Shown: positions 16,742 to 62,563 of the stretch, piece after piece
Position numbering within the stretch: position 1 is the stretch's first letter
Layout of the letters: the number at the start of each line of letters is the position of its first letter
Assembly: GCA_008933995.1 (NCBI GenBank)
Contig: WARS01000126.1
Coordinates: forward strand, 524,001 to 588,000
Source of the DNA: Datnioides undecimradiatus
Lineage: Eukaryota > Chordata > Actinopteri > Lobotiformes > Datnioididae
Direction: 5' to 3'
DNA: 64,000 nucleotides
Made by a program: the position numbers and the translations under genes
Notes under the pieces: model-generated
Told to the model about the DNA's origin: nothing
The model's database searches: none
The model's input: only the letters and a program-made list of their open reading frames with translations

Positions 16742-19700
16742 ATGCCGCTCGCGCCTGCTAATCAGTCCCAGCTGATTCGGTCCAGTCAGAAGGACGAATA
16801 CTACCAAACGTGCCTGCGAAACAACGCTAATGAAGCTTTTCAACTACTTGCAGGTAAGTTAGCTCAAACCTTACACACTGGAAACGTATAATTTGTCTTA
16901 TGGAGCTAGTTTGCTTGACTTAAACATCTAACGTCATGTAATTAATTTAATGTACATATAAACCTGAGTAGGTGCAGCTTGTATTTCTAATCTCCATAAC
17001 GCTCTTTGCTAAGTCACTGACTGCAAATCAGTAACTTAGTAAAGATGGACACAAGTTAGTGAAGTTAGTTTCACGTTGGAAAAAACTAACTGAAACCAAC
17101 TTCACCGTGGTGATGGACACTTGGTTCACGATCCTTAAGTCCAACCTGTGTTGTGCTGGGCAGTGGGCATAACGGCTCAACAGTATTGAAAAACTCAACT
17201 TATACTGACCTAAATGCTGCTTTGATTATAAGTATAAGTAATCAATTAAAAAGGAAAGTTTGTACATTAATATCAGGTTAAGCAGGGTAAAATCAAAGTT
17301 GCAGATATTTGATGTTAGTTAGTCCAAAATAAACCAAACTCCCTCTGCCTACCTTACTCTCTGCTGAGTCTGACACTACTTTTCAATTCAGTGGTCACTC
17401 GCCATTGTTCAGCCATTCATCATCATAGATGAGCAGGTTGCTATCAAAGGAAAATCATCAAGAGAAGGAGTATCAGTAAACTTTAGCACTCGGTATTAAA
17501 GCTAGTTGAACCTCTCTCGCTCTCTTTCTACAGGATCCAAGAGGTGGCTGAACTGGAGGAGAGAGATAGAGCTGCTGTCAGACATCGCCTACTATGGATT
17601 AACAACATTCTCTGGTAGTTACTGGTCAAAGCAGTGTGAAATCAGAGCTGACTACATGTGCCTCTCATCTTCATTTTGTTGGTATCTCTCTCCTCCTCAG
17701 GTTATCAAACCCTGGGCGAAGAGTATGTCAACATCGTCCAGGTGGATCCCACTAAACGCCGAATCCCCTCTTCAGCCAGACGGGGCCTCTTCGTCTTCTG
17801 CCATGCCTTCTTTCCTTACCTCCTTGACAAGGTGCTGGTGTGCCTGGAGAATGAGCTGGAAGGTGGGCAGGAGAGCAGTGGTCTCAGTCGAAGGCGAGCA
17901 GCATCTGGGATGTGGAGCCTGGAGTCCTGGCTGAGGAGCTGGGCACAGAGGGCGGTGGGGCTGCTGTCTGAGCCCCAGAGGAGGACCTGCCTGTTGGCCG
18001 TGTTTATCCTCCATCAGGGTCTGACCTTCCTGCACCGACTCCACGTGGCTCTTTTCTACATCAGCGGCTCTTTCTATCATCTGTCCAAGAGGGCGGCTGG
18101 GATCAGCTTTGTAGGTGTTCTGTTTTGTTTTTTTTATTATTATTTAATTTTAGAAAAGTCCAATTTTTAAGTGTTTTACATCTTACGGATTCTTGAGTTA
18201 AGGCTGTTTGAATACATTTCATATTTTTAAATTTTCCAAATGTGTCATTTTGGGTGTGTGTGTAGATTCGTATGGTGGGGCTGAACGGCGATGACGGGAC
18301 CATCAGAAGCAGCTACAGGCTGCTGGGGGCCGTGTCCCTCTTTCAGCTGCTCATCACCGTTTGTCTGCAGTTCAACAACTTCAGACAGAGACAGAGAGTC
18401 CGGCAGGAGTGGAAGCTCTACAGGAACCTCAGGTACTTCACACACACCTGCGCCTAGTCTTGCTGGAAGAACAGATTTGTAGTTTAAAACAGCTAATCCT
18501 TATCCTGCAGTTCAATACTTCAGTGCACAGTACTAAGCAAAAGCCCCTAAGATTCATTCTGCTTGACGTGCAGCCTCGTTAAGCATGTGAGTGAAACCTG
18601 GCCTGTCCTTGTTGACGTGTCTTACCCTTGGCTTGCAGCACGAACCTGGCAAAAGATAATTTAAGTTACTGTGGTCAGATCATTTCTTTTCAGGCTGCTA
18701 GCACTGAGCACAGGTGCGCTGTAGCTGCTTTGTTCCACTGTGCACGGCTACATTACGTTCCAGCTGCAACTCTTGTTTCGTTCCATTCTTCGCACGGCTT
18801 CACACCTCACCAGGAGCACATCAGACCATTTTGTCTGCAGGATCACTTGGCATCACAAACATGGGCATTGCAACTGGAACCTGATGCCGGTGGAATCAGG
18901 CAGCCTTCTATGAAATCCATGCTGTGTTCAGTGCCTGACTGTTTGTGTCTCCAGTCCTCAGTGCACATGGAGCTCAGGCCCCAGAGTTGCCCGCTGCATC
19001 CTCTGCCTAGAGGAGAGAAGAAACTCTACGTCCACTCCCTGTGGACACCTCTTCTGCTGGGAGTGCATCACAGAGTGGTGCAACACAAAGGTCAGGCCTG
19101 TGTCATGACTAACTCCATTCATGAGTCAGCTGTCATCTGTATATGTAACACTGCAGTACGTAATTAACTGAGAGTTAAAACAATGTTCAACTGATGCTTC
19201 ATATTTCCCCAAACAATATTTATTGTAGTTCATTTGCACAGGGATTTCTGTCCCTTATTGTTAGATTAATATTAAATAGATGTTATAGTTCATTTTAAAT
19301 CACACAGCAGTGGGTTGCACTGCACTGACATGGTGAATGTGCTCTCTGTTAGCTGGTGTTTATGTTCAGCTGGTGTTACAGAATGAAGGGTTACATCACT
19401 CTGTAACAGCACTGCACTACTACAAGCTGACAGCATGTCTTTGCACTTGAAGGGCAACAGATTTGCGGCTCTCATCTCAGGAAACCGTCCGGCTGATCAC
19501 ATCGATTTCAGGAGAATCTCCCAGTAAAAGTTCAGCACTTGTCACATCAATAATTAAAGTTCATCAACAAAACAGTTTTACATCAGAAACCTGCAGTAAG
19601 AGTTCAAGCAGCTCATGAACGATAAGCAGTGTCAGCCAGTCAGTGAGCTCTCACCTTGGTCTGACCCGTTTAATCAATATTTCATATTATTTGATGTTCA

Positions 19701-32579: not shown

Positions 32580-34446
32580 CAGAAACTGGAACATCAGTTA
32601 CAGCAGGACGGTGTGAAACAGGTCTGGTCTGGTATGAGGAAGATCACAGGCCTGGGGGGGAAGGGAGGACCCCTGCCTGTCGAAGATCAGGACCAGCCTG
32701 AAGGCATGAATGCCTACTTTAACAGATACGACAACTCTGCCTCCTCCTTTCATCAACTGCCTGTCCCCTTGCTACACCCCCTCACAGTCCAAAACCTTCC
32801 TCCCAGCCAACCCCCTCCATCTCCCATCCACCCACCAGCTCAGTCTCCACCCCCAACACACTCACCCATAACACTCCAGCCATTTCAGGTGAAGATAGAA
32901 CTGGACAGACTTAAAAAAGGAAAAGCAGCTGGTCCTGATGGTATCAGCCCTAGACTTCTTAGGACCTGCCCCAGTCAGCTGTGCAATATCCTCACACCTG
33001 GAACTACAAAAGGTTCCCACACTATGGAAAACATCCTGCATCGTTCCAGTTCCCAAAAAGAGCCTCCTTGTTGATGCCAGTGACTACAGGCCTGTAGCCC
33101 TTACTTCTCACATTATGAAGACACTTGAGAGGTTGGTCCTCTCCTACTTAAGACCCAGGGTGAGGACACAAATGGATCCACTACAGTTCACATACCAGCC
33201 CAACATCGGTGTGAATGATGCCCTCATCTACTTGCTGCAGAGGACCAATGGCCACCTAGACTCCTCTGATGCGACTGTAAGGATCATGTTCTTCGACTTC
33301 TCAAGTGCCTTCAACACAATTCAGCCAGGACGGCTGAGTGAGAAGATGAGGATGCTACAAGTGGAGCCAGCACTGGTGGACTGGACGACGGACTACCTGA
33401 CTCGCAGGTCACAGTTTGTGCGACTGAAGAACTGTGTCTCCAGTACACTCCTGAGCAGCACAGGGGCCCCACAAGCAACTGTCTTGTCCCCTTTCCTCTT
33501 CACAATCTACACATCAGACTTCCAGTACAACACTGACGCTTGCTTTCTTCTGAAGTTTTCTGATGACTCAGCGATCTTCCTGGTGGAGGTCAGGAAGAGG
33601 AGTACAGGGGCATGATTGCGGACTTTGTGGACTGGTGCAACCTCAGTCACCTCCAGCTGAACATCTCCAAAACTAAGGAAATGGTGATTGACTTCCAGAG
33701 GAGGAGGCCCTCCCCGGCCCCAGTCACCATCCACGGCATGGAGGTGGAGGTTGTCCCCAGTTACAAGTACCTGGGAGTGCACCTGGATGACAAGCTGGAC
33801 TGGTCCAGACACATGGAGACAGCGTACAAGAAGGGTCAAAGCAGACTGTATTTCCTGAGGAGGCTTAAATCCTTCAACATCTGCAGACCCTTTCTGTGTA
33901 CCTTCTACCAGACTGCAGTGGCCAGTGCACTGTTCTATGGTGTTGTGTGCTGGGGGGAGGGGCCTCGCTCTATGGACTGTAACAGACTCAACAAACTGAT
34001 TAAGAGAGCGAGCTTCACCATCGGGGCTGAGCTGGAGGTGTTTCGGCAGAGCACCTTCAGTCACAGACTGATACTGCCAAGGTGCAAGACAGAAAATAGC
34101 AGGAAATCTTTCCTGCAAGCTGCCATTAGACTCCATAACACACAGCAATAATAATTAAGGGTTGCACATTGCACTTTATAAGCTCCACATTGCACAATAT
34201 TCACTGATCTTGCACTGATTGTTTTTAAATATGTTACATTTTTTACATTTTTTATTTATTTATATATTTGTTTTTTCCCTTGCCATTAAAAAAAAAAAGG
34301 CCTTGTACAGATTCAGTTATACTTCCTTTAGCCTAAATTATCTTTTCTCTTTTAAAGTCATTTGCACTTCTTATTTATGGCTGATGTAACACCAGAATTT
34401 CCTGCAAAGGATTTATAAAGTACTATTCTATTCTATTCTATTCTAG
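32580..34446 (+). mobile_element. Rex1-like non-LTR retrotransposon, 5'-truncated
   Basis: The element encodes most of a reverse transcriptase and ends in a (TATTC)n tail at 34422-34445, a typical 3' end of target-primed retrotransposons. The 5' endonuclease region is missing. Visible RT blocks are KGKAAGPDGISPRLLR, FFDFSSAFNTIQPG, STGAPQATVLSPF, LKFSDDSAIF and YKYLGVHLDDKLDWSRH. Rex1/Babar is the best guess of clade from these motifs; an L2-related clade is the alternative. Confidence 0.8.
32583..34151 (+). pseudogene. Frameshifted LINE reverse transcriptase
   Basis: Three overlapping frames make up one former polypeptide. The first (to about 32992) holds the RT start, the second (about 32990-33590) holds fingers and palm up to the FSDD catalytic block, and the third (about 33590-34151) holds the thumb and C-terminus from MIADFVDWCNLSHLQLN. 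The family normally reads through these joins, so there are two frameshifts, near 32992 and 33590. The catalytic Asp pair is kept, but no full-length product can be made. It lies in the presumed first intron of renbp, in the sense direction. Confidence 0.85.
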
Positions 34447-39600: not shown

Positions 39601-42201
39601 ATCAAACTTTGCCCCTTTATTACAGAGCCATTTATTATTTATGACAGAAATGCATTCATCAAAATCAGAAAAAGAAGCACAGGGATTTGATTTAGTACAG
39701 CAGATCTTGATAGGATCACTTTCTGACCACCCAACCACATCAGCCAGACCAAATGCTCATGCAGTTGATTGATTGAGTGACAAACACGGAGAGTTACAGT
39801 TATTCTGAGTTATTATAAGCTCAAGGTTTAGGTGTTTACTGCCTCAACAGGATTTAAAGTGACCAACACCTGAAGACAGACCGATGTACCATGATGTTGC
39901 TAGTTGTTAACTAATGAATCTTTGCTCTTTGATGCAAAAGGTGGTTGACCGATTAATGGATGTTATGATATCATTGGCTGAAACTGGTTGGTTAAATTTT
40001 GTTTTACAGAAAGAAAACAGGATCATATTTTGATATAAAGCAACTAATTGTTTGACATAAATTGTAGTTTCACAATATGATCAAGAGATACAAAACTTTT
40101 TAGTCCTTTACCCCCCACCATTGTGTCCGAAAAAGCATGAAATGCTATGTACATGAGAAATGAGGGGCATACTTAAAAAGGTTTAATGGCTTTAAAACAA
40201 AGTGTCACTTATTAGGGAGTTACAGGCTTTACAGGCCTAAATTTCTATATACACATATAACATATATGTTACCTAGACGTAAACCAGTAATTCAGCTTAC
40301 TGGAAGTTTGATTTCTGCCTGAACAAGCTTGACCACATTGTCACCCCATCACTCTGATAGACTGTCCTCTGCTCTGTTGTGTTGCTAGCTGGAGGCCGAG
40401 CAGATGATGGAGCAGCTGATCTACTGGGTTCGGGAGGACTCGTCAGGTCTGGGTCGGCCCCAGCTTCCCGGGGACATTACCACCAACAGCATGGCAGTTC
40501 CCATGATGCTGTTGTGTCTGGTGCAACAGCTCACTGAGGGCCGGGGGCAGGAGGTAGTTCAGAAGTATAGAGAGCTGGGCAGCTGGTGTGTTCAGCAGAT
40601 TCTGCAACACATCCAGGTACGCTATAGAAACTGATTTTTAGTAATTTTAGTCTCATTTCTTATGTCAGTGTGCTTTTCAAAAAAGAGATTTCACAGAAGC
40701 CAGAAGTTCCAGTTTCACAGTCCAGTTGGGGCAAGTTGTTAAAATGCTCAATGTAAAACTTCCTGTTTCTTCTTTTCTAACTTGATGACAGAGAGATGGC
40801 AAAGCTATTTTGGAAAATGTGTCACTCGAGGGAGCAGAGCTACCGGGGTGCCAGGGACGACTGCAAAACCCAGGTACCCTGACCAGAAAGCCAGATAAGA
40901 GCCAGCACAGTGACTGCATGGGGAAGCTTGGGTTGTGCTCGTTTCCTGTTCCTTGTTGCCTGCCTCAACATTTTCCATTCTGTTTCCCCACATGCTAACC
41001 TGTGCTGACTCAGGCCATGCACTGGAAGCAGGCTGGTTCCTGCTTCAGTTCAGTGCAGAGCAGGGGCATGAGGAGCTCCAGAAGACTGCTATTGACAAGT
41101 TTGTAGAGCTCCCTTATCAGCACGGCTGGGATAAAGAACATGGCGGTCTCTTCTACTTCCTGGATGTGGATGGTCACTGCCCCACACAGGTGAATCAATC
41201 ATCTTTATGCATCATTATGGGGTTTTTTTGGCAGTTGACAGTGTCGGCCAACTCGGCCAGTGGCTGACATTGTTTGCATTTGGTTGATCACTCACTCTGT
41301 ATTTAAACAGTTGGAGTGGAGCATGAAGCTGTGGTGGCCTCACTGTGAGGCTCTCATTGCCTTCCTGATGGCCTACAGTCAAACCAAGAGGCCGGAGCTG
41401 CTGGAGAAATTCTTTGAGGTCTATGAATACATCTTTAGCCATGTGAGTTTACATTACAGTGCCAACGAAGCAGACAGTCTTCTTTTTCTTTTAAGGGATA
41501 GTTCAACATTTTGGGAAATACACATGATCTCCTTTTTGAGAATGAGATGTTCAGACGGATATTATTCTCATGTCTGTCCAGAGCTGGAGTCAGGGCATGT
41601 TTAGCCTAGCTTAGCATATTGACTGGAAGTATAGGGAAACAGCTAGCTCATCCAAAGTTAAATACACCTACCTACACCTCAAAGGCCAGAAATAAAAAAA
41701 TTGAAAAGTGTGTGTTTAGGAGGGGTTATATTCTGGGTCGTGATTCTGAATGAAAAACATCCTGGAGGAGTAACACTGTGCCGCATCACTGAATATGTGA
41801 TGTCAGCAAAACTATATATATGTTGCCTTTTCTGAGATGTGTATATTTTAATGCACTGCATACCTGATATAGTGTGATTCTTGTGCAGTTTCCTGATGGA
41901 AAGAGTGGTGAGTGGTTCGGCTATTTGACACAAGAAGGGAAAGTGGCACTGGATTTTAAGGGAGGTCCCTTTAAAGGTGAGAGCGTGATTGAGATGTAAA
42001 ATAACAGAAAAACTTGTTAAATGACCTTAATTTTTGTATTATACAATACAGTTTAACAACAGATAGTCCATTTATGCTTGCAGTTTTGCCTGGTTGATGG
42101 GATGATTGCTTCTCCTCTCTTCTTCAGGCTTCTTCCATGTGCCTCGCTGCCTGTACATGTGTGAGCGCATTCTCGATGATCTGCTGTCTAACAAGGACTG
42201 A
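36636..42201 (+). CDS. renbp: Renin-binding protein / N-acylglucosamine 2-epimerase
   Basis: RENBP interconverts N-acetylglucosamine and N-acetylmannosamine in the cytosol, linking amino-sugar and sialic-acid metabolism; the mammalian protein also binds renin. Ten coding exons join in frame: 36636-36736, 36841-36916, 37019-37094, 38613-38794, 40389-40616, 40792-40873, 41014-41189, 41311-41442, 41889-41976 and 42128-42201, giving 404 aa, near the family length. It is an (alpha/alpha)6 barrel enzyme. Recognisable parts include [13 protein letters not shown] near 60, [15 protein letters not shown] near 248-262 with a conserved His at 250, [18 protein letters not shown], and [16 protein letters not shown] with a conserved His at 384. 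Both His regions belong to the active site in the family. All introns have GT/AG borders; introns 3 and 8 hold repeats. Confidence 0.96.
37640..38520 (-). mobile_element. Decayed Tc1-like transposon in renbp intron 3
   Basis: On the minus strand the block starts 'ctttattaagtacacctgtt' and follows the layout of a very common fish Tc1-like element. It has a start region with 'gaggaagacaggttaattta', then [55 protein letters not shown] and, in another frame, [15 protein letters not shown], the degraded SPDLNPIEHLW catalytic block. Frames change and the end at about 37640 is ragged. It is inactive and belongs to a different Tc1 lineage from the copy at 24.6 kb. Confidence 0.8.
38795..40388 (+). 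other. renbp intron 4, nothing recognised
   Basis: A 1.6 kb intron with short overlapping frames only. No repeat family or exon-like block was recognised. Confidence 0.5.
41491..41705 (+). repeat. Common fish dispersed repeat in renbp intron 8
   Basis: Shows the sequence 'gttcaacattttgggaaata' followed by 'tctcatgtctgtcc', 'tagcctagcttagcatattg' and 'actggaagtatagggaaaca', in the order seen in a very abundant fish repeat. Coding potential is absent. The element class is not known to me. Confidence 0.65.
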
Positions 42202-44008: not shown

Positions 44009-47000
44009 ATGTATCCCTCAAGTAAAGGAATGGATGCGGTGCACAGGTACAGTTACACTTACCTGATACATCATAGACCAAAATTAAGTTTAGCAATAAA
44101 GAAATCCGATAATTGACAGACTTGACCATCCACAGTCCCCTTTATATTTGAGTTTATGGAGTATTTCTCTAATGGTTCAGATTCCGTTAGTTTATATTCT
44201 GTGGCTCTAACCATGAGTCAGCACCATGACTAAGTCTATTAAACATAGTTATTATTCAACTAATCAGTGGTATTATCATTGATCATTATAAAACAGTATT
44301 AATTTGGTTATGAGTATAATACCAACAGTTGCCAAAAATGCTTCCCATTGTAATGGATACGTTTAAAGGAATAATTCACCATCATTGATTTTGACATCAA
44401 GTATAATGCCAATATAAGCGATATTGTGATTGTTAAAAGTGAAATATTTAATAAATTATTCTTATCTAACGTTTCTCTTAAATGGTGGAATGAGATAAAA
44501 TACCTCAGCCATCAGGTTCACCATTTTTCAGATGGCAAAGCTAGAATCTGACAGTGTTCCAGGCTAATGATAGTAAATTCAGTATGTGCTGTTTCTGTGT
44601 TTCAGTATTTTGTGTTCACACAGAAAAAACATGCAGGGACTTAAAGGGCATGCACATGTGTTTTCAGTGACTCTGGCTCAATACACCTGTTGACAGGCAG
44701 AAATGGGTGGAGCTACGCTGGCAATTACAACTTGCTGTGTACTTCCTGGGAACTCTAAGGTGTACATCACATTTCATTGATGACTCATAAGAGAGAGTCA
44801 AAATTATTAACACTGAAATGTCCAATCCAGTATATCAAAACCGTATTTGCATTGCACATTGTGTCACTGATCATACCATGGAAATAAGGTGTATATAAAT
44901 CATTCTTATAGCTTTACTAATTCAGTGAACTGAAATGTAGAGAATGTTGCAATATTCAGCTGTAGCCGATAGTAATTGTCACAGTTTAGCACACCTGCTG
45001 ATACCTCTTAATGCACTTCATGTCCATGATTCTTGCAGTTTTCCAGATCCAGATGGTTCAAAGTCCTTATTTTAAGTCACTTTGGATACAAGCGCCTGCT
45101 AAATAAATGTCATGTTTGCCTGTTGTTTTCACACTGTGGAATGTTACGTTGTATGCTGTGAAACAGGCCTGTAGTTTTAAACATCTCATTTCCCAGAAGT
45201 TTGAACTATTCATTTAAGAACTATACTCTCACACTGTGTGAACTATGTGAATTGTAAAAACAGCTTTACATTTCAACCTTCCTGTTCTCAACTAACATGT
45301 TCCTGTGCTGTATTGTTGGTTTTCTGCAGTGGAACTGGTGTCTTCTACCAGGCAATGCCTGCTGTTGGAGCCGATGGAAAGAACATCATGAAACTGATTC
45401 CTGTGCAAATGATCGATGGACAGTTTTTCCAGAGAACAAGCAGACCCAAAACGGATTTTACTCCACAAAGAGCCCTAACCGTAAATATTCCCTCAGCACC
45501 TGTTCAAGTGGTTAAAAAGGCATCTTTGAGTCCTTCTGCCACCCAGCAAGCTGTCAGGAAGCCTGTTTCACTCGCGAATACGTTGCACAATCAAGTAGGT
45601 TTGGATCGTTGTAATTCACTAAACAAGTGTCCGCCACAGGAACAGAAGTTAAAAGCGACAAACTGTGAGAGATTAGCAAAACTTCCAAGCCAGCTCCCGG
45701 TGACAGTGAAATCTCCAGCACTCCCTAGAGGACAGTACCTACAGATACCACATAATGCACAAGTCCGAACAGTCCAAGCATCTGAACTACCTGCAGGAAT
45801 CAAAAAACAGATTTTTACTTCATCCGCCAGCTCTTCTCCAGGTTCAAGCTTACCCAGTGTAATCTACGTGTCACCTATCACGACGGTGAATCAAGATGTC
45901 ACTCCACCACGAGATCCTTCACTTCACTCGCTCAAGCTTTCCAAGACGTCAAATAGACCTGCATCTGGGCCAATGCAGAAAGCTTCGACACCACATTTAA
46001 AACTCATTCCAAAGGTTTCACAGAGGCCCAACAGCCCCATAAAGTGGGTGATTGAGGAAGAAGACAGCTCAAGGCTGCCAACTGTTGATCCTCTGAATTC
46101 TCCTTCAGTTACCTCGGAGATTCTTTCAGTTGTGGCGGAGAGAGAAAATGCCTTCAAGCGTCATGACACCAACACAAAACCGGTTTCTCAGCTGAGTCCG
46201 GGCAAAAGTGATCAAGGACAGGAAAACGCCTTGGTCATGTGCAACGGGAAGGTGTTTTTTGTTGCCAAAAAATGCAGCCTGCCGCGTAAAATGGGAAAAG
46301 GCAACTCACCAAACACGGCAACAAAAAGTGAAGAAGTGGAAAATACCACGGTGCCTCCATCTAAGCAGCCACGTGAGTCTGCTGCACCTGAGATGAAGCA
46401 GGACCTCAGAATTATCAGTCTTGATGAGTCAGATGAAGTGATTGACCTTTGTGATGATGACACAGAGGATGACTCATCCCAGCAAGCGGCATCAGTAAAC
46501 TTGTCAGCAGTCACTCAACTGGATGAAGACAACGTCATCTTTGTGTCGTATATTCCACCCAAGCCAGAGCCTCAGTCCGCACAAGACGTGAGGGTAAAAA
46601 CACAAATGGCACCCGAGAGGGAAACAGACCAGATGGTCACCAGCAGCTCAAACACTGCGACGGAACCAAAGAGCCTGGATGGTGCAGCTGACCAGAGCAC
46701 TTTAGTCAGCACAGTCAGAAATGTCACACGTGATTGTGGTTCAACAGTGATGAGCATGCACGGCAGTAAAGACTCAAATATCAACGGTCAGCAGAGCACC
46801 TCCACCCACCAGCTGGAGAGCATGGAAGTGCATGTAGAAACAGGGAAACCAGTGGATGCCTGCACCTCCGACAGCAGCACTGGAATATTCACGCAAACAG
46901 GAAAAGAAACAAACAGAACAGAGGTGAGGGCACTACTCTTGTTTGATCTATATAATATATTGTATACGTGTTTTTGATAGAAGCATGGAAAATAATTCTG

Positions 47001-48303
47001 ATGCATTTAACTGCACGGTTAATGTAGAGCAGAGTTTGTTTCCAGTGCATGTCAACATGCAAGAGCTTTGAGTCTGTACAGTGCATGTGCAGTTTTCATT
47101 TCAGTGTCATAAACCAAATGTTTGGTCACATTAAACATCCTTCTAACAAAGATTTGATCATGAGAAGCGGCCTGTTGCAGCCCTTCTCCTTCTGCTCAGC
47201 CTATTTACAGTATAGACCTTGTCAGTAAACTATGAAAGCATTGTAGAATATGACATCAGCCTCAGCTACACATTGCTAATGAAAGACTCCTACTTTATAA
47301 ATATCTCATTAACAAAGATTGTGGTTAACATAACCTGCCGTCAGTATCTTAACATTGTTGATATGTGTATGTTAGCATGTTAGCACCACTGTTTCAGAGT
47401 CAATAGCATGGCTTAATAACTGGCAGACTTGTTGACATGTTGTTTTGATGACAGAGTGTTACTTCTTTCTGCTTGCAGAGCTCCGTGAGTGCTGCGACGA
47501 GGCTGACGTCTTCTCTGTTACCAAAATCCTGTGCAGCCGCCGACCATCTGCTGAGGCAGATGTTTCAGATAAAAGCTGATGTCAGAATTTGCCTGCGGAG
47601 GATCGATGAAGCCTCACCCGCGTCAGTCAGCCATCCTGAGACTGACCGTTGTGGTCTCGTCGATGTCAGACAAGCGAAGGAACTAGCTGAGCAGGAGGGG
47701 TCAACAGACTCTGCCTCTCCAACACTTTGTTCACATCTCAAACTGAACACAAAACCTCTTCCTGCCTTGAAATGCATCTCAGGTCATAGTTCATGCATGG
47801 GAACGTCATATGATGTGGAAAGTGAGCCAGTGATTGGCTACGTGGAACCAATAGATGAGGATTTCCTCAGCACAGATGAAAATGACATCCCCAGGTCACA
47901 GGACGTAGACTTCCAGAGACAGACTCCGACTTGTGTGGATCTGAATTCAAGCACACGGAGGATGGGAAGAATGAGGAAGCGCACAATCTGTCCGTGTTGC
48001 ATCCCTGGTTCTCAAGATCCTGCGGCAAAGTACACAGCAAAGTCATGGGCACTAGAGAAGTTCGCATGGGCGACAGAGCAGGCAAGTAAAAAAGGTGGAA
48101 AAACAAAGGCTGTGAGAAAAAATGGAATAACGGCGAAGAACAAGCAGAACGGTTCCACTCCTGAGTTTCCTGCCAGCGACAGTTCATCCACAACATCCAT
48201 GGACTCTGATGAACTGAAACGACACGAACAGATTCACAGACTCAGGGAGCTTCTGAGAGAGAAGGAGGCAGCTTTAGAAGTGATGAGAAACAGCATGAGC
48301 TGA
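44009..48303 (+). CDS. lrif1: Ligand-dependent nuclear receptor-interacting factor 1
   Basis: LRIF1 (HBiX1) is a nuclear protein that binds HP1 and SMCHD1 and takes part in heterochromatin compaction; it was first found as a retinoic-acid-receptor partner. Three coding exons join in frame: 44009-44046, 45330-46923 and 47479-48303, giving 818 aa (human about 770). Family landmarks in order are FYQAMPAVGADGKN (18-31), LPVTVKSPALPRGQYLQIP (from 135), PSVIYVSPI (about 188), ENALVMCNGKVFFVAKK (about 311-327), ADVRICLRRI (from 577) and the coiled coil HRLRELLREKEAALEVMR near the end. The middle is disordered and low in conservation. EVIDLCDDDTEDD (about 382-394) looks like a SUMO-binding motif. The short exon 1 was chosen because its phase-2 donor joins exon 2 exactly before GTGVFYQ. 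Confidence 0.93.
45073..45112 (+). repeat. Short interspersed repeat tail in lrif1 intron 1
   Basis: 'taagtcactttggatacaag' followed by 'cgcctgctaaataaatg' matches the 'taagtcgctttggataaaag / cgtctgctaaatgaa' tail of abundant fish retroposons. Only the tail can be recognised. Confidence 0.6.
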
Positions 48304-50019
48304 GATAAAAAATATTCTAACATACTGCAAGGTTTGTTATAAGTTAACAGATTTATTTTAGTATATAACAGTTATTACTGTTCACTTTTGTTGTCACTTA
48401 ACACAAACTAACACAGGTATCACATGAGCTTCAGTACAGTGTAAAGGATTTATGGCGTTAACATGCACGAGCTTCTAGTTTCACAGCGGTGTGGTACGGA
48501 GGTGTGTGCAGACAGACTGGGCAGCGGCCACGTGTCCAGAGCTGGCAGTCACAGGACTTTAAAGTTAGCATTAATGAAAAATAAGATTTTTCTCTTGAAT
48601 CAGATGTTCACTATCAATTTATCAGGAAGTTTACATTGTAAGGACAGTGATTACCAGCTCATACAACTTCACGTAACAGGCCCTTGATGAAACAGCCTGT
48701 TGTTGTTGTTCCTGCCACAGGCGTCAAACCTTATGTTACGTTCACGCTTTTGGCATTGTTTTATTTTTATTTATTTCCTGTTTTTATGTTTCTCTCTGAG
48801 AGGAAGCTGTCATGTAGATGTCGACTTCTCAGCAGATTATTTATTGTACCTGTAACATTGTTTGCAAAACATTCTGATGTCGTTATCGCATCATCTTTAA
48901 CCTCGCACCACCTTTAGGTGTTTATTTAGTGTACAGATGCAGAGTGCGCAGCTGAATATGATCATATTACCACCATGCCACACTGTGAGTATCTCCAAAT
49001 AATTGGCCCAGTAACGATTATACACCCGTTCAACGTGGTGCTGCACATCACACACACCGCCATGAACAGTTCACTGCTATGAAACTCCAAGGTCACCGCC
49101 TTACATGTTGAAGGTTAAATCGATTGAAGAACCTTTAAGAAGTAACATTGAATCAGTAGCTCTAACATGCTACAGATGTGTCCCCGGACTCTTTTCAGAA
49201 TGTTAAGTTTAAATAGGCGAACTATCCCTCCCGGCTCATTGAATCCACCTCCTGGCTTTTTCAAAGACTGCGAGATGCACTTTAAAGCTCAGAAAGTAAA
49301 ACTTATGATTTATGAGCAGGCTATGCCACATGTATTGATCTATAGGTCCAAGAAAATTAAATGAGAAGTGGGAAATGAGCAATGCAATCAACTGTTTTAA
49401 GTTTCACCTCAGCTAGAGCTTCAAAGAGGAGGTACTTCATCTCTTTGAGTGAGGGTTTGTCGAGGCATTGAGGTGAGTACAGTAAAGCTAATACTGTATA
49501 CTAACACTGTAAGTCTGCCTGATGAGCAATGAATGCTTCGGTTAACAGCTAAGTGTGGGTTTGTACACACTCAAAACATTTTCTGTTTTATATTTGTGAA
49601 AAATGCTGTGTTATGAGGAGTTATTGAATGTCATGCAGGTCGTGTTTATGAAATACTAATGCAATATTTATATTTTATTGGGGCACACAAATAAATTCGC
49701 CAGTTAAAATGATCAACGTGAGCTTTTGTTGTTTTTAAGATAGGTTCATCAGTCAGTCATCAAGCATCAATCATATGTAGCCTGAATACAGAAATATGAG
49801 CTGCCTGTGGGCTGAAAGTTCAGACATGAAGAGATGCCCCAGGGCTGCTACGTCAGACTTCTGCTATGTGTGTCAGGCCTTCAGAATAAAAGTCGATACT
49901 TACAAAGTCAAAGTCGAGGTGATCTAATTACAGGGCAGATGATGCAATTTGGTATGTAATTGCCACACCCACTAAATGATCACGAAGATTAGTAGGTGTT
50001 TCTAGGAATTATTATCTTC
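48304..50019 (+). other. lrif1 3' flank
   Basis: Probably contains the lrif1 3' untranslated region. An AATAAA at 49690-49695 is a distant candidate signal. Nothing else was recognised. Confidence 0.4.
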
Positions 50020-51591
50020 AATGTACAAGCCAGTCTGAGCATTGTCTCAATCAACCGGAGAGTAATTAGATCCAAACCCTCAACCTGTCTTTTGGACCCC
50101 ATCCCAACTCATCTTCTAAAAGATGTTTTCCCCCTGATTGGCTCTTTTATATTAGACCAGATCAATCTGTCATTACTAACAGGTTATGTTCCACAGGCTT
50201 TTAAGGTTGCTGTCATCAAACCTCTACTCAAAAAGCCTTCTCTCGACCCTGGTGTTTTAGCGCACTATAGACCAATATCCAACCTCCCCTTTATTTCTAA
50301 AATCCTTGAAAAGACCGTAGCTGATCAGTTATGTGATCACCTGCAGAGGAGCAGTTTATTTGAAGCATTTCAGTCAGGATTTAGAATAAACCACAGCACA
50401 GAAACAGCATTGGTTAAGGTTAGCAACGACCTCCTAATAGCTTCTGACAATGGCCTCGTCTCCTTACTTGTCCTGCTAGACCTCAGTGCTGCATTTGACA
50501 CCATCGATCACGGTATCCTACTACAAAGACTAGAACATGTCATTGGCATTAAAGGAACAGCACTAAGCTGGTTTAAATCTTATCTATCTGACAGATTCCA
50601 GTTTGTCCACGTTAATAATGACTCGTCCGTGCACACAATGGTTAATCATGGAGTTCCACAGGGTTCTGTGCTTGGACCATTATTGTTCTCCCTTTACATG
50701 CTCCCCTTAGGCAATATTATTAGGAAGCACAACATAAATTTCCACTGCTACGCGGACGATACACAGCTATATTTATCTATGAAACCAGAAGAAACAGATC
50801 AATTAGTCAGACTTCAGACATGTCTGACAGACATTAAGGCATGGATGACTTATAATTTTCTGCTCCTAAATACAGACAAAACTGAGGTGATTTTGTTTGG
50901 GCCTAAACACCTCAGAGACAGGTTATCTGACCTCGCAGTCGCTTTGGATGGTGTTACCCTGGCCTCCAGTTCTACTGTGAGGAACCTGGGAGTCATATTT
51001 GACCAGGATATGTCCTGTCAGTCCCATATTAGGCAGGTCACTAGGACTGCCTTCTTTCACTTGCGCAACATAGCTAAGATTAGGAGTATCCTGTCCAAAA
51101 ATGATGCCGAAAAGCTGGTCCACGCATTTGTTACCTCAAGGCTGGACTATTGTAATTCCTTGTTGTCAGGTTGTCCGACTAGCTCACTGCGAGGCCTCCA
51201 GCTCATCCAAAACGCTGCTGCGAGGGTTCTGGTGGGAATTAGCAAGAGAGATCATATTTCTCCGGTCTTAGCTTCTCTTCATTGGCTCCCTGTAAAGTCC
51301 AGAATAGATTTTAAAGTCCTTCTTCTTACCTACAAGGCCCTTAATGGCCAAGCTCCATTGTACCTCAATGAGATGCTAAGTCCCTATCAACCCAACAGAT
51401 CACTTCGCTCCCAGAGTGCAGGTTTGCTTGTGGTTCCCAGAATCTCCAAAAGTAGAATGGGAGGCCGAGCCTTTAGCTATCAGGCTCCTCTCTTGTGGAA
51501 CCAGCTGCCAGTCTGGGTCCGAGAGGCAGACACCCTCTCTACTTTTAAAGTAAAACTTAAAACCTTCTTGTTCGACAAAGCCTACAGCTAG
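49996..51591 (+). CDS. L2 LINE reverse transcriptase (uninterrupted, truncated at 5' end)
   Basis: A single open frame of about 520 codons encodes the complete RT core, with [48 protein letters not shown] (first catalytic Asp), [28 protein letters not shown] (catalytic YADD, about 50750) and [11 protein letters not shown]. It extends through the C-terminal region to [11 protein letters not shown]. No stop or frameshift is seen. The endonuclease is absent, so the protein cannot be complete. The first residues of the frame may come from flanking DNA. Biological role: copying the element's RNA into DNA at the target site. Whether it is expressed is unknown. Confidence 0.9.
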
Positions 51592-52145: not shown

Positions 52146-52680
52146 CCTCTGCGATTTATAACAATGGTCATGAACAAAGTCAGTTTCCATCTCCTCTCCT
52201 GTGCTTATCATGACATTGATAATTTGTTTGTTTGTTGATGAAAAATTAGTCCATGCCCTTAAAATCAGCCATTTACTGTGCAGTAGTTACATTTTAAAGA
52301 CAAAGGGACAGATGGGTAGTTTGATGTATAACATGTACTTTTAAATCACATGTCTAACAGTGATTTCCTTGCACACAGACAGATTCTAGTTTAAAGACAA
52401 TCACAAGCCTTCCTGTCGGACACGGTGGTTCAAGAACATTTGTAGTTGAAGAACAAGGAATGAAGTAGACAATAGATATGATGATATAATTTCTACAGAT
52501 ATAAACTGATACTGATTGATACTTTTACTGTAAATAGAGTCTATAGTCACTGTTGTAGGCTGCTATAAAGCCAAATAAGAGGTCCGGATGCATTTCGAGA
52601 TGCTACTACTCAAGTGATTTCAGGGGGCTGAAGTGTAGCACATACGTTTGTTTAACCTGTTTTGTCCCTTTAAGAGTTTT
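52146..52680. other. Intergenic stretch after the L2 element
   Basis: No gene or recognised repeat; A+T-rich. Confidence 0.4.
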
Positions 52681-52689
52681 AGGCGACGT

Positions 52690-52794
52690 TTTTATTATGA
52701 AAGGTACGTCCCGGAAGTGCAGCTGTTTTCTGATTAAATGAAACTGCATCAGAGCAGCCGGGACCTCAGCAGCTAGATAACGTGTTTCGTTCAG
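52690..52794 (+). promoter_or_regulatory. Candidate promoter and non-coding exon 1 of the lrif1-like gene
   Basis: An ETS-type site, ccggaagt, lies at 52711-52718, in the same form as in the lrif1 promoter. About 75 bases later a good donor, 'gttcag|gtgagagcg', ends a possible exon at 52794. The coding exon at 54042 has an acceptor ('gtgtttacag|gcaaat') just before its ATG. The connection is inferred. Confidence 0.45.
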
Positions 52795-53929
52795 GTGAGA
52801 GCGACGAAACGGGATTTATTTGACATTATTCACACCACCGTCGACTATAATATGTGGTAGCTATGAAACAGAATCCGCATTTATCCGTTTCGATGGTAAT
52901 TTTAGTTTTCCACGTCCCTCCAATCCTACCGAGGCGCACTGTCTTGTATTACGGACTAAATACTTAAATACGTTTCATGGCGTTTGTTAAGAAGAAACTA
53001 ATGGACGTTAAAAACAACGAGGTCTGTCCTCACCTTCACCTCGCGCTTAATTATAAAGGTAGAAACAGTAACGCGGCAGGAGACGAATTGCCTTAGTTAC
53101 ACGGGGTGTTCTTCCGCCGGAGGACTTATCGAATGTGTTTCAGAATGTAGGACCTCATAGGGTACATGCTTACTGGTTAATTGCAGTGCAGTCACACCTG
53201 TTACTCCCCACAAGGATTAGCTGACTCTGGCAGGTGTGTCATTTAGCCGAGCAAGCGTTCTGATAAACAATGCGAATCAGCCTCACTGATTTGTTCTCAT
53301 TAAACTGATCCAAAACTAGGCACCCGCAAGTTATTGTTAGGAAAAACAATGTACTATAAATGATATCAAAAGAGGTTAAAGCAGTCCTCATTAAGACAAA
53401 TGTAATTGATTTATTATTGATCTAATGCACAACCATGGTGGCCGTAGACTCCACAGGGTATGAAATATTGGATCTTGGAGCTAAATTTCAAAATAAAAGT
53501 TGTGTTAGTCTGTGATTAATATCCTCACAGGTTAATTCCACATCTTATTTCCACCATCAAAAGTCACCCGGTGCTCCACGGCCATGACCCTGCTCATCAT
53601 CCAGACTGTTAGCTGCTGCGGATTGCTGAACCAAGTCAATGCCTGTTACCTCCACGAGGTGACAACGCACGATGAGGGCCGACAGCTGAATCAGAGTATT
53701 TTTCATATTTTCAGTTTGCCTGAAAAACTGAAAGCCATTCGGTTAATCATGTTAAGAAACAATTGGCAGATCTTCACGTTAGAAATCAGATGATATTGTG
53801 TAGATTCGAGAAATGAAACCAAAACTACCATCTAAAGAATCATCTTAGATTTTTACCTAATAATTGCATTGATACTATCCTTAACTACCACTTTATGTGA
53901 AAGCATGAAATTATGGTCAGTGCCCATCC

Positions 53930-53952: not shown

Positions 53953-54057
53953 CCAAAATCAGTGTGAAGCTGGTTGATCGTTGATGAAACGACCTGTTAT
54001 GGAGTCTGCGCTTTAACTGAACCACTGTGAATGTGTTTACAGGCAAATACACGGAGC

Positions 54058-56485
54058 ATGGATCTTGAAAGTATGGAAATCTACATCCCGGCGGACACTG
54101 AAGTGAAAAGGATCCCGCTGAGGAGTCTACCCAGCTCAATACTCAGACGAATGAGCCTCCCTCCGGCTGACACAGATGGGTCCAGGAAGCCTGCAGAATC
54201 TTCGGAGGGCATATGGATTTGTCCTGCGGTCCTGCGGAAGAAAGGCCAGAAGCCAGCATCCCACACAGGAAGCGGCGTGATAGAAAGCATGTCCTCACTG
54301 ATGAACAGGGATTTCAGGGCTGCTGTCGGTCCCTTCCGAATGTCCTTTGTCTCCTCCAGCCACACAGCTTACAAGGTGCTGAAGGACACGATGCCTGGGA
54401 AAAAGGTCTCCACACACACATCTCGCATGTCCCTGTTATCTCTGGACGCGACACCGCGAACGTACCATGAAGCTGTGTTCATCTACCAGGGCCGCATCTA
54501 CCTGTCCATCAGGAAGCCCCGCCGCAACCAGAGCAAACACGAGACAAACAAACCACAGCCGGCCACCCAGTCTTCTGTTCTCTCTACATCAGATGTGTCG
54601 TCTAAAAGCCAAAGGAAGGTAACGTGACACTCAAGCCACTGCAACAAACCTATGAGTGGGAGAACATGGCAGGTCATTTAACAGGCGTGGTTTCAGCCTT
54701 TGAAGTGAAATCGGAGTCTACAGCCATGCCAGCACACACAGTGGTGATTTGTCAGTATGCTAAAATGTCCACAATGCTAACATATGAATGTTTAACAGGC
54801 AATGTCTGCTTAGTTCACTGTCTTAGTAAGCATGTAACGTTTTATTACAGCTGATGATGTCACTGCATGAAACATCACATGGTCATCAGTGTTATAACTC
54901 ATTCTGATGAGGACATGAATGTTTAACAGCAGCATCTAAATATAAAGCACATTGCTGACAGTGTTCGGTCTAAATCAGAGGTTTGACTCTTCGTCTCTTA
55001 GGAAGATTTTGTAGGCAGTTATATTTACTCGTTTACATGTGACTTGTTTACCCTCCTGCAGCGCCAGTCCCCCCAGGCCTCTCTTGAACCTGCAGACAAA
55101 GAGGTGCAAAGGAAGAGGGTGCACATCACTTTGCCCCAGATCTCACAAAAACAGTCAAAGGAGCTTCTCACAAAAACAGACAGCGCAGATCAGGTGAGCG
55201 TAACAACAATGGCAACTTCATAAACATAGCACATGCACGGAAAACAAATAATTTGAAAACCACCTGCACACAACACCAGCAACTCCCGGAAACACTCTCG
55301 CACACACCGAGCAGGTTATTGCTGCTCCCAACGCAGACTCCAGAGCTAAAGCTGGCCTAGATCTCCTCTACCTTCCAAAATACACCAGTGACTGTGTGAC
55401 CCATTAATAGTTCACTGTGTTACACTGTTATTAAACACAGCACTGACTGTTGCGAGTCAGTATACCGAGTTGGATTAGAAAGACACGATGCATCAGGAGA
55501 AAACCCTGAATGTCTAAAAATATAGTAACACAGATTTCCATTCACACGCTGAGATATGTCATTCTGTCAGACATCACTGTTTCTATAGCTGTGCAGCTAG
55601 GGTGTCTATAGCAAGCAAGGGTTGCAGGTGAGCATCTGGAGCTTCAGAGTTCCTCAGAAAGATGTCTGACATGGTTTGAACCACTCATAACTACTTTTTA
55701 CTCGTCAAACACACATAGACAAGGGTCAAATGACTTGCATCTCAAAGGCAAAAGACACTTTACTCGAAATAACTCTTAAAGACCCAGCAGGAATGGAGCT
55801 CTGTCACAGTACAGCAGTTCTAAGCATCTGTTGTGGGCTTGATCATATGTCTTTACATTTAATCCAAGCAAAGGAACACGAGCTCCATGTGACAGAAGTT
55901 CTTTACATCCCTCAGGAGCTGCTAAATGACACCAGCCCCAAGAAGAAACACACCACATGTAAAGCAACACACAGTGAAAACATGATGAAAAAGGATGTGA
56001 CACACAAGGGAAGGGACGTGTCCTCAACCAAGACTGCACGCTCTGTCCCTCAGTCCTCTGACAGTGTGCACAGCGTGCATGGCCAGTGCCATAAGGATGC
56101 CGGAGGAGAGCAGGCTGCAGAGGAAGGACCCAGCCAGGAGCCAGCTTGGTTTCAGCATCAAGGGGAGCAGCAGCAGGTGGAGCCCAGCAATGACAGTGAG
56201 ACACAGTACCTGGATGCAGAAGAACCTGAGAGCACCAATCAAAGCAGTGACATGGACAGTAATATAAAAAGTGACAGCGGGGAACCTGACATCATGGTGG
56301 GCATTGTAGAGCAAAGTAGCAACCAGAGCTGGACCAGGAGAGAGTCACACAGCGCAGCTGCTGCTTCCACATCCCAAGAGCAGGAGTTTGACTTCACGGA
56401 GCTGGCACAGGAGGAGAGAATCGCACGGATGAAGGCCATACTCAGACAGAAAGAAGGGGCTCTCAAAAACCTGCACTTTTCATGA
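54058..56485 (+). CDS. LRIF1-like protein (probable diverged tandem paralogue)
   Basis: Three coding exons join in phase 0: 54058-54618, 55062-55193 and 55916-56485, giving 420 aa. Motifs parallel LRIF1 in the same order. IPADTEVKRIPLRSLPSSIL (10-29) matches LRIF1 IPHNAQVRTVQASELPAGIK. EAVFIYQGRIYLSIRK (138-153) matches ENALVMCNGKVFFVAKK. VHITLPQI (207-214) sits where LRIF1 has VRICLRRI. EERIARMKAILRQKEGALKN (397-416) matches the LRIF1 C-terminal coiled coil. The LRIF1 N-terminal FYQAMPAVGADGKN block is missing. A role with chromatin partners through the coiled coil is inferred, not known. The last acceptor (55915/55916) was chosen by pyrimidine tract and phase; an earlier start is possible. 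I do not recognise a named orthologue. Confidence 0.8.
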
Positions 56486-61144: not shown

Positions 61145-62563
61145 ATGCACTCCTCATGCTGCCCTTCAGCCAGACCACAGACACTGAAGGTAAGACCAAA
61201 AGTTGCTGATGCACTGTTGTGCAGCAGGCTGATACCTCTCATCATAGAGTTCAGATTATTGGGTGTTGTTGATTTTTTTATTAGTGCTTCAATAGTTCCC
61301 TGTAAATCCCTGGAATCCCTGAAAGGACCTCATTTGTTTCTGTAGATTCACTGGAAATATGGAGAACATATTGGATTGGTGCACTTATATTCATTTATTT
61401 TTGTACACAACATGTGTCCTCAGTAGAGAGATGCATATTCAGCATATGCTTAAACACTCACCGACTGTCTTTATTTTGCTCATAAGCATAAATAATTGTT
61501 ATTTTTTAACGAATTATTACGAAATGTTGGAGCTATAAATGAGAGCATCACTGCAGCTCTTCGGAAACTGAGCAGTTTAAGTTTCGGGCTGTTTTCCAGA
61601 CAAAATAAGCATTCTGAGGACACAACTTGCTGAAGGACATCACGTCTTCAGATGATTTATAACCAAAATGAATCCTGGAGCCACCAGGTTTCAGATATCA
61701 GCCTCTTGCACATTTGCAGATTGTCTTCATTGAGTCTATTGAGAATCCCTTTTTTGCTTTTAAAAAGCGATGACACCAGTTTATATCATTATTCATAATC
61801 TAATGCACAATGTTACAGCGGTCTAATTGCCCATAAAACAGGGTAACCTGCGCTGGTTTATTAAAAAAATGTTGTTTGGAATTTAGAGAATAAGTGTGCA
61901 ACCCATCACGATATTCTGAAATTTTCACTGGACTTAATAATGCTGGAATTATACGATGCAAATATCCCACTATGAAATTAATCCCTTTTTTTTTTTTTAA
62001 TTTCAATTTTAAAACGTGAGTGAAAGTTACGTCTCATACACGGGGGTTCAAAATTCCCTGAAAAATCCCTGAAACAACAGAGTCTATGAAGCACTCTCAG
62101 TGGCAGTGAGGTCCCACTGAGATGCCTGCACACTAAACAAAAGCCTTTTAATGTAACTCTGGCCAGTTTGCAGTCAGTTGACGTTAATAATAATAGTGAT
62201 GGCAGGTTGACAGAGGCCGAAGGAGTCGGTTGTGCGTTACAGTGAAGTTCTCCTGACAGGTGAGGGAAGTCACAGTGATTATAATTCAGTCTTTTGGACT
62301 TTTTAGACCTTTATTACAAAGTCATGATGAGGTAAAGACACAGAAAGCTTCTGCAGAATCAAAGCCTTGTCTTGGGCTATTTAAGGTGTGTATTAACAGT
62401 TTTCCCCCTTACCTTCAGGTGTTGTGTGTTCGGATGTGTATGTTCTACTCCGCCACCTGTCTGGCAGGTTGGCCGCTCCCCTCAGAGGCGGCCAGACTGC
62501 GCTGTGGTACGGATCTCCTCAGCGACCTCATATTTGTGTGCGGAGATCGCGGAATCTATTTAG
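61145..62563 (+). CDS. igf3: Insulin-like growth factor 3, first two coding exons (partial)
   Basis: IGF3 is a secreted teleost insulin-family hormone made mainly in the gonads, acting through IGF1-receptor signalling in germ-cell development. Exon 1 (61145-61189) and exon 2 (62419-62563) join in phase 0 and give 63 codons plus one base. The first part is a hydrophobic, Cys-rich signal sequence (about 16-33). Then comes the B-domain: ARLRCGTDLLSDLIFVCGDR (40-59) with both B-chain cysteines, C44 and C56, and the family signature FVCGDRGIY. Exon 2 ends at a consensus donor in phase 1, as in other IGF genes. The exon with the B-domain end, C and A domains is not in the window. Assignment to igf3 rather than igf1 or igf2 rests on the divergent B domain and signal sequence. 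Confidence 0.85.

Follow-up and report, generated by a model that had tools for sequence, protein, structure and literature searches.

The closest described relative of the gene reported here is LRIF1 (also HBiX1), a contributor to chromatin silencing and the family represented in Pfam by PF15741. Work on the human protein describes a C-terminal LRIF1 coil that binds SMCHD1 and a PxVxL motif that binds HP1, and reports that SMCHD1 binding at D4Z4 in human myoblasts is independent of LRIF1 (PMC10307901). According to a second study, LRIF1 connects SMCHD1 to H3K9me3, and its coil may contact the coils flanking the SMCHD1 hinge (PMC4628070). In zebrafish, the lrif1 knockout phenocopies that of smchd1, with hox and vertebral defects common to both (PMC9226161). 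Human LRIF1 also exists as long and short isoforms generated by exon 2 splicing (PMC10307901). The short isoform, LRIF1S, offers the nearest likeness to a compact LRIF1-type gene, being a shortened LRIF1 that coexists with the long form, lacks the exon 2-3 junction and shares the exon 3-4 end (PMC10307901). However, LRIF1S results from exon 2 splicing of one gene, whereas the gene described below is a separate locus. Because it is separate and keeps pieces resembling those of the large exon, it does not simply reproduce the LRIF1S arrangement.

Within the accessible parts of the open-licence literature on LRIF1/HBiX1, teleost lrif1 and igf3/renbp synteny, we found no description of a second LRIF1-type gene, though predicted database entries may exist. 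The paralogue-like names occurring in these texts denote other things: LRIF1L is the human long isoform, another name belongs to a zebrafish mutant allele, and ‘LRIF1 homolog’ refers to HBiX1.

The window, that is, the whole stretch of 64,000 nucleotides analysed from Datnioides undecimradiatus, contains lrif1 itself on the plus strand. Its large coding exon (45355..46923) and its last coding exon (47479..48303) join in phase 0, giving a model of 797 residues that matches Pfam LRIF1 with E=2.1e-41. The last exon holds a VRICL motif (47581-47595) and the C-terminal coil (48211-48285), and the open frame enclosing it matches Pfam LRIF1 with E=4.6e-12. The gene terminates with this coil, its stop being at 48303. 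Translation probably begins in an additional exon 5' of these, because the frame contains no stop as far back as the acceptor at 45329/45330. A CpG-rich stretch lies upstream of lrif1 (windows from 43250 and 43500).

Upstream of lrif1, two open frames of GlcNAc-2-epimerase (renbp) type were found, one at 40914-41264 and another, which falls just below the Pfam cut-off, at 41239-41601. On the other side, near 62503, an IGF-type B-chain motif fits igf3. So does an A-chain-like stretch found among the open frames of the next 10 kb, about 935 bases past the end of the window; its paired cysteines are separated from the following cysteine by four residues, compared with three in other IGFs. Scanning the window and the next 10 kb with a strict insulin A-chain motif yielded nothing IGF-like, the one match, at 48698, being due to chance. 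The interval from lrif1 to the compact gene holds a reverse-transcriptase open frame (RVT_1, 49996-51591, plus strand, E=8.9e-37), which probably belongs to a non-LTR element. The two genes were thus probably closer together before it was inserted. The window also contains a second reverse-transcriptase fragment (RVT_1, 32899-33612, E=9.2e-20) and a Pex2/Pex12 N-terminal domain (17652-18167, E=1.4e-25), possibly that of pex10.

The compact gene holds up as a gene model. An initial annotation of this DNA had claimed a 420-residue gene in the same orientation as lrif1 and about 5.8 kb after it, and both points hold: one open frame runs over three GT-AG coding exons on the plus strand and encodes 420 residues plus a stop, with its ATG at 54058, about 5.75 kb from the lrif1 stop. 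Coding exon 1 (54058..54618, residues 1-187) begins with an ATG that has A at -3 and G at +4, and ends in phase 0 at the donor GAAG/GTAACG. Coding exon 2 (55062..55193, residues 188-231) lies between the acceptor CTGCAG/CGC and the phase-0 donor ATCAG/GTGAGC, and coding exon 3 (55916..56485, residues 232-420), which contains the stop, follows the phase-0 acceptor CCTCAG/GAG; both introns are therefore in phase 0. Codon use is coding-like. With log-odds trained on lrif1 alone, the in-frame values per codon were +0.135, +0.27 and +0.205 for exons 1, 2 and 3, and in each exon the true frame exceeded all five others. For 1,000 samples of nearby non-coding DNA, the mean was -0.30 and the maximum -0.078; since the background was derived from the same DNA, and since some wrong exon frames also lie above it, comparing the frames of each exon with one another is fairer. 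A CpG-rich region similar to that of lrif1 lies upstream (52500..53249, plus strand), with an observed/expected ratio of 1.16 for the 500-base window from 52500 and of 1.13 for the one from 52750. It contains a possible non-coding first exon, the donor of which (after 52794, TTCAG/GTGAGA) would be joined to an acceptor at 54042/54043, both splice sites being judged by eye.

Compared with LRIF1/HBiX1 (PF15741), the compact protein shows the terminal coil, the IP..V..LP..I block (hereafter IP block), the G-K/R block and, past a phase-0 intron, a single candidate VxIxL site; its gene shares the strand and neighbourhood of lrif1. Unlike lrif1, it scores below the Pfam cut-off, has no GADGKN block and no LxxLL site within its coil, is missing most of the region that links the G-K/R block to the intron, and is encoded with an extra intron. 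Four landmarks had been claimed to be kept, and their standing is unequal. When blocks picked beforehand by eye were scored against shuffles of lrif1, the IP block (54079..54153, plus strand, residues 8-32) reached 36 against lrif1 residues 129-153 (0/500 shuffles) and the C-terminal coil, the candidate Smchd1-binding end (56399..56473, plus strand, residues 393-417), reached 56 (0/500), so that both hold, the coil strongly. The G-K/R block (54469..54516, plus strand, residues 138-153) is weaker, with a score of 21 against lrif1 residues 291-306 that was attained by 14 of 500 shuffles, and we consider it moderate. The fourth landmark rests on position: VHITL (55119..55133, plus strand, residues 207-211), a candidate HP1 motif of PxVxL-like form, and VRICL (lrif1 residues 558-562) are the sole [PVIL]x[VI]xL sites in their respective proteins, with 0.41 and 1.57 such sites expected by chance in the compact protein and lrif1, but their flanks align with a score of only 4, which is not significant. 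An IYVSP block was not significant either (score 11, 372/500 shuffles).

The architecture of the two genes corresponds in two further respects. A phase-0 intron separates the G-K/R block from the VxIxL site in both, and the coil lies at most ten residues from the C-terminus in both proteins; an LxxLL site occurs within the lrif1 coil, whereas the compact coil has none. The GADGKN-type N-terminal block, probably conserved in LRIF1, is absent from the 420-residue protein, as annotated. A shortened middle, also annotated, was found in part: the distance from the G-K/R block to the intron falls from about 217 residues in lrif1 to 34 in the compact protein, whereas that from the VxIxL site to the coil is hardly shorter (about 210 versus 186). 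Shortening is thus mainly N-terminal, with at least 128 residues ahead of the IP block in lrif1 versus 7 in the compact protein, plus the stretch from the G-K/R block to the intron. The compact gene has an intron between the VxIxL site and the coil that is absent from lrif1 here, where exon 47479-48303 is unbroken. Human LRIF1 has an exon 3-4 junction (PMC10307901), and the extra intron of the compact gene may therefore be an old one that has disappeared from lrif1 in this fish.

Direct alignment of the two proteins gave a local score of 86, reached by 2 of 500 shuffles. The signal was clearest at the C-terminus, where the last 45 residues of the compact protein scored 68 against the last 60 of lrif1 (shuffles 23.2±4.6, none of 1,000 reaching it). 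Exon 1 scored 59 against lrif1 (14/1,000 shuffles), and exon 2 was not significant (267/1,000). With lrif1 as the single subject, blastp returned the coil with E=0.001 and the IP block with E=2.0; hhalign on the two single sequences gave E=0.0014 for the coil, with a probability of just 17.9%. Chaining of ungapped blocks over the full proteins yielded 222 versus 161±12.7 (0/200 shuffles), and when exon 1 was chained to the first lrif1 exon in full, 5 of 200 shuffles reached the score. Both of these blind chains placed the start of the compact protein at lrif1 residues 12-34 and not at the IP block. Over ranges chosen by hand (compact residues 1-160 and lrif1 residues 112-325), chaining gave 68 versus 45.4±8.9 (1/200), with the IP and G-K/R blocks landing as expected. 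AlphaFold models of compact exon 1 and the matching part of lrif1 are of low confidence (mean pLDDT 38.7 and 37.7); they place strands and a single helix at the corresponding blocks, ordered identically, with three extra short elements in the compact model, and this agreement in strands lends weak support because each model used the other sequence. Altogether, the relatedness of the compact protein to LRIF1, as judged from sequence, is supported but faint.

We propose that the compact gene is a separate, intact and strongly diverged lrif1 paralogue that arose by an old tandem duplication. Homology to lrif1 is, in our estimate, very probable, and homology together with a Smchd1-related role has a probability of about 0.5. 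A tandem duplicate, as originally annotated, is the simplest reading of the order and orientation of the genes. Such a paralogue would have kept the segment with the IP and G-K/R blocks, a candidate HP1-type motif past the phase-0 intron and the coil, and would have lost much else. By extension from known LRIF1 biology, the coil would grip the hinge region of Smchd1, VHITL may hold the HP1 chromoshadow dimer, and the protein would act as a short nuclear adaptor, either beside Lrif1 or sharing Smchd1 with it. Since the coil is the best-kept part, Smchd1 binding would be the likeliest retained activity, with roughly even chances; HP1 binding is less sure and, by the same analogy, rather doubtful. 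A true lrif1 paralogue may instead have left the Smchd1 pathway, its coil dimerising or serving another partner while the protein drifted to a new nuclear role. We hold this to be a tentative but serious alternative: identity has fallen to 36% in the coil and 23% over exon 1 as aligned, an extreme divergence, whereas lrif1 matches its family at E=2e-41, and neither the VxIxL flanks nor exon 2 are alike. Against it, no other part is as well preserved as the coil, suggesting retention of the coil's partner.

Profile searches bear on whether the compact protein belongs to the family at all. The full 420-residue protein retrieved no family with E of 10 or less among the 24,736 Pfam families searched. 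Its N-terminal residues 1-158 matched Pfam LRIF1 only (E=0.13), with residues 7-31 on profile positions 162-186, and its last 38 residues also matched LRIF1 only (E=0.088, profile positions 712-739); the last 47 matched LRIF1 on the same positions (E=0.097). In total, 3 of the 11 pieces scanned matched LRIF1, two of them covering the same coil, and the best scored 11.8 bits, below the curated LRIF1 cut-off of 27 bits. Seven of the 11, including the whole of exon 1, had no Pfam match; the whole of exon 3, coil included, did not retrieve LRIF1, just a chance match to an unrelated family (E=7.3), and the G-K/R block alone matched nothing. Among 20 shuffled pieces keeping composition and hydrophobic pattern, none matched LRIF1, and four matched some other family with E of 0.2 or less, one of them with E=0.0023. 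Single E-values near 0.1 are at noise level on their own. The proposed profile check against LRIF1 is therefore borderline, failing for the full protein, without any match above the cut-off, and pointing to LRIF1 alone for two end pieces; because it falls below the cut-off, the compact protein is not classifiable as an LRIF1 member by the Pfam rule, and ‘LRIF1-related’ describes it best. Searches of the PDB returned nothing for the full-length compact protein and two weak chance matches to azurin for lrif1, and a scan of viral_contigs found no relative.

An alternative is an unrelated fish gene whose C-terminal helix and small number of hydrophobic blocks resemble LRIF1 by chance, and the failure of the full-length search, the noise-level E-values of the individual pieces and the low hhalign probability all speak for it. 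We nevertheless consider such a gene improbable. The weight lies with two independent, non-overlapping pieces that select the same one of 24,736 families, in the correct order, this being the family of the neighbouring gene; moreover, no shuffle out of 1,000 reached the coil score, and the phase-0 intron matches that of lrif1.

The source genome (581 Mb, 497 contigs) was searched with only the best candidates of each search being scored. The LRIF1 profile gave two matches with E of 0.001 or less among six candidates scored, both of them lrif1 exons. With the compact protein, nine candidates were scored; its own three exons accounted for half of the six matches, the remaining three having E of 4.45 or more, and no second copy of the gene was found among these candidates. 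A further copy in this genome is thus unlikely, as far as the best candidates scored go. The coil of either gene retrieved itself and not the other coil, with one candidate scored in each case. Six chromoshadow matches on five contigs point to HP1-type genes.

That the three exons are alternative lrif1 exons spliced to supply a second C-terminus, or otherwise part of a shared transcript, is very improbable: they lie on the same strand about 5.75 kb downstream, and joining would preserve the frame because the modelled introns are in phase 0, but lrif1 already ends in a coil and stop of its own, the compact exons repeat blocks already present in lrif1, and the compact gene has a separate start codon in good context, preceded by a possible first exon within a CpG-rich region.

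For a diverged tandem paralogue of lrif1, the role in LRIF1-SMCHD1-HP1 silencing raised by the initial annotation, as a partner that is modified or competes, is a conjecture by analogy with LRIF1. It is a long shot, in our view, that some fish carry, beside lrif1, a second, dedicated short LRIF1-type gene that diverts or titrates Smchd1 away from chromatin marked by Lrif1 and HP1. If true, such a gene would be a gene-encoded counterpart of the balance between long and short isoforms that splicing sets in humans, and it could contribute to hox silencing of the oocyte-set kind known from zebrafish. Knockouts in fish with a second LRIF1-type gene would also have to be read with that gene in mind, whether through backup or antagonism, and the minimal make-up of the compact protein would reveal which parts of LRIF1 suffice.
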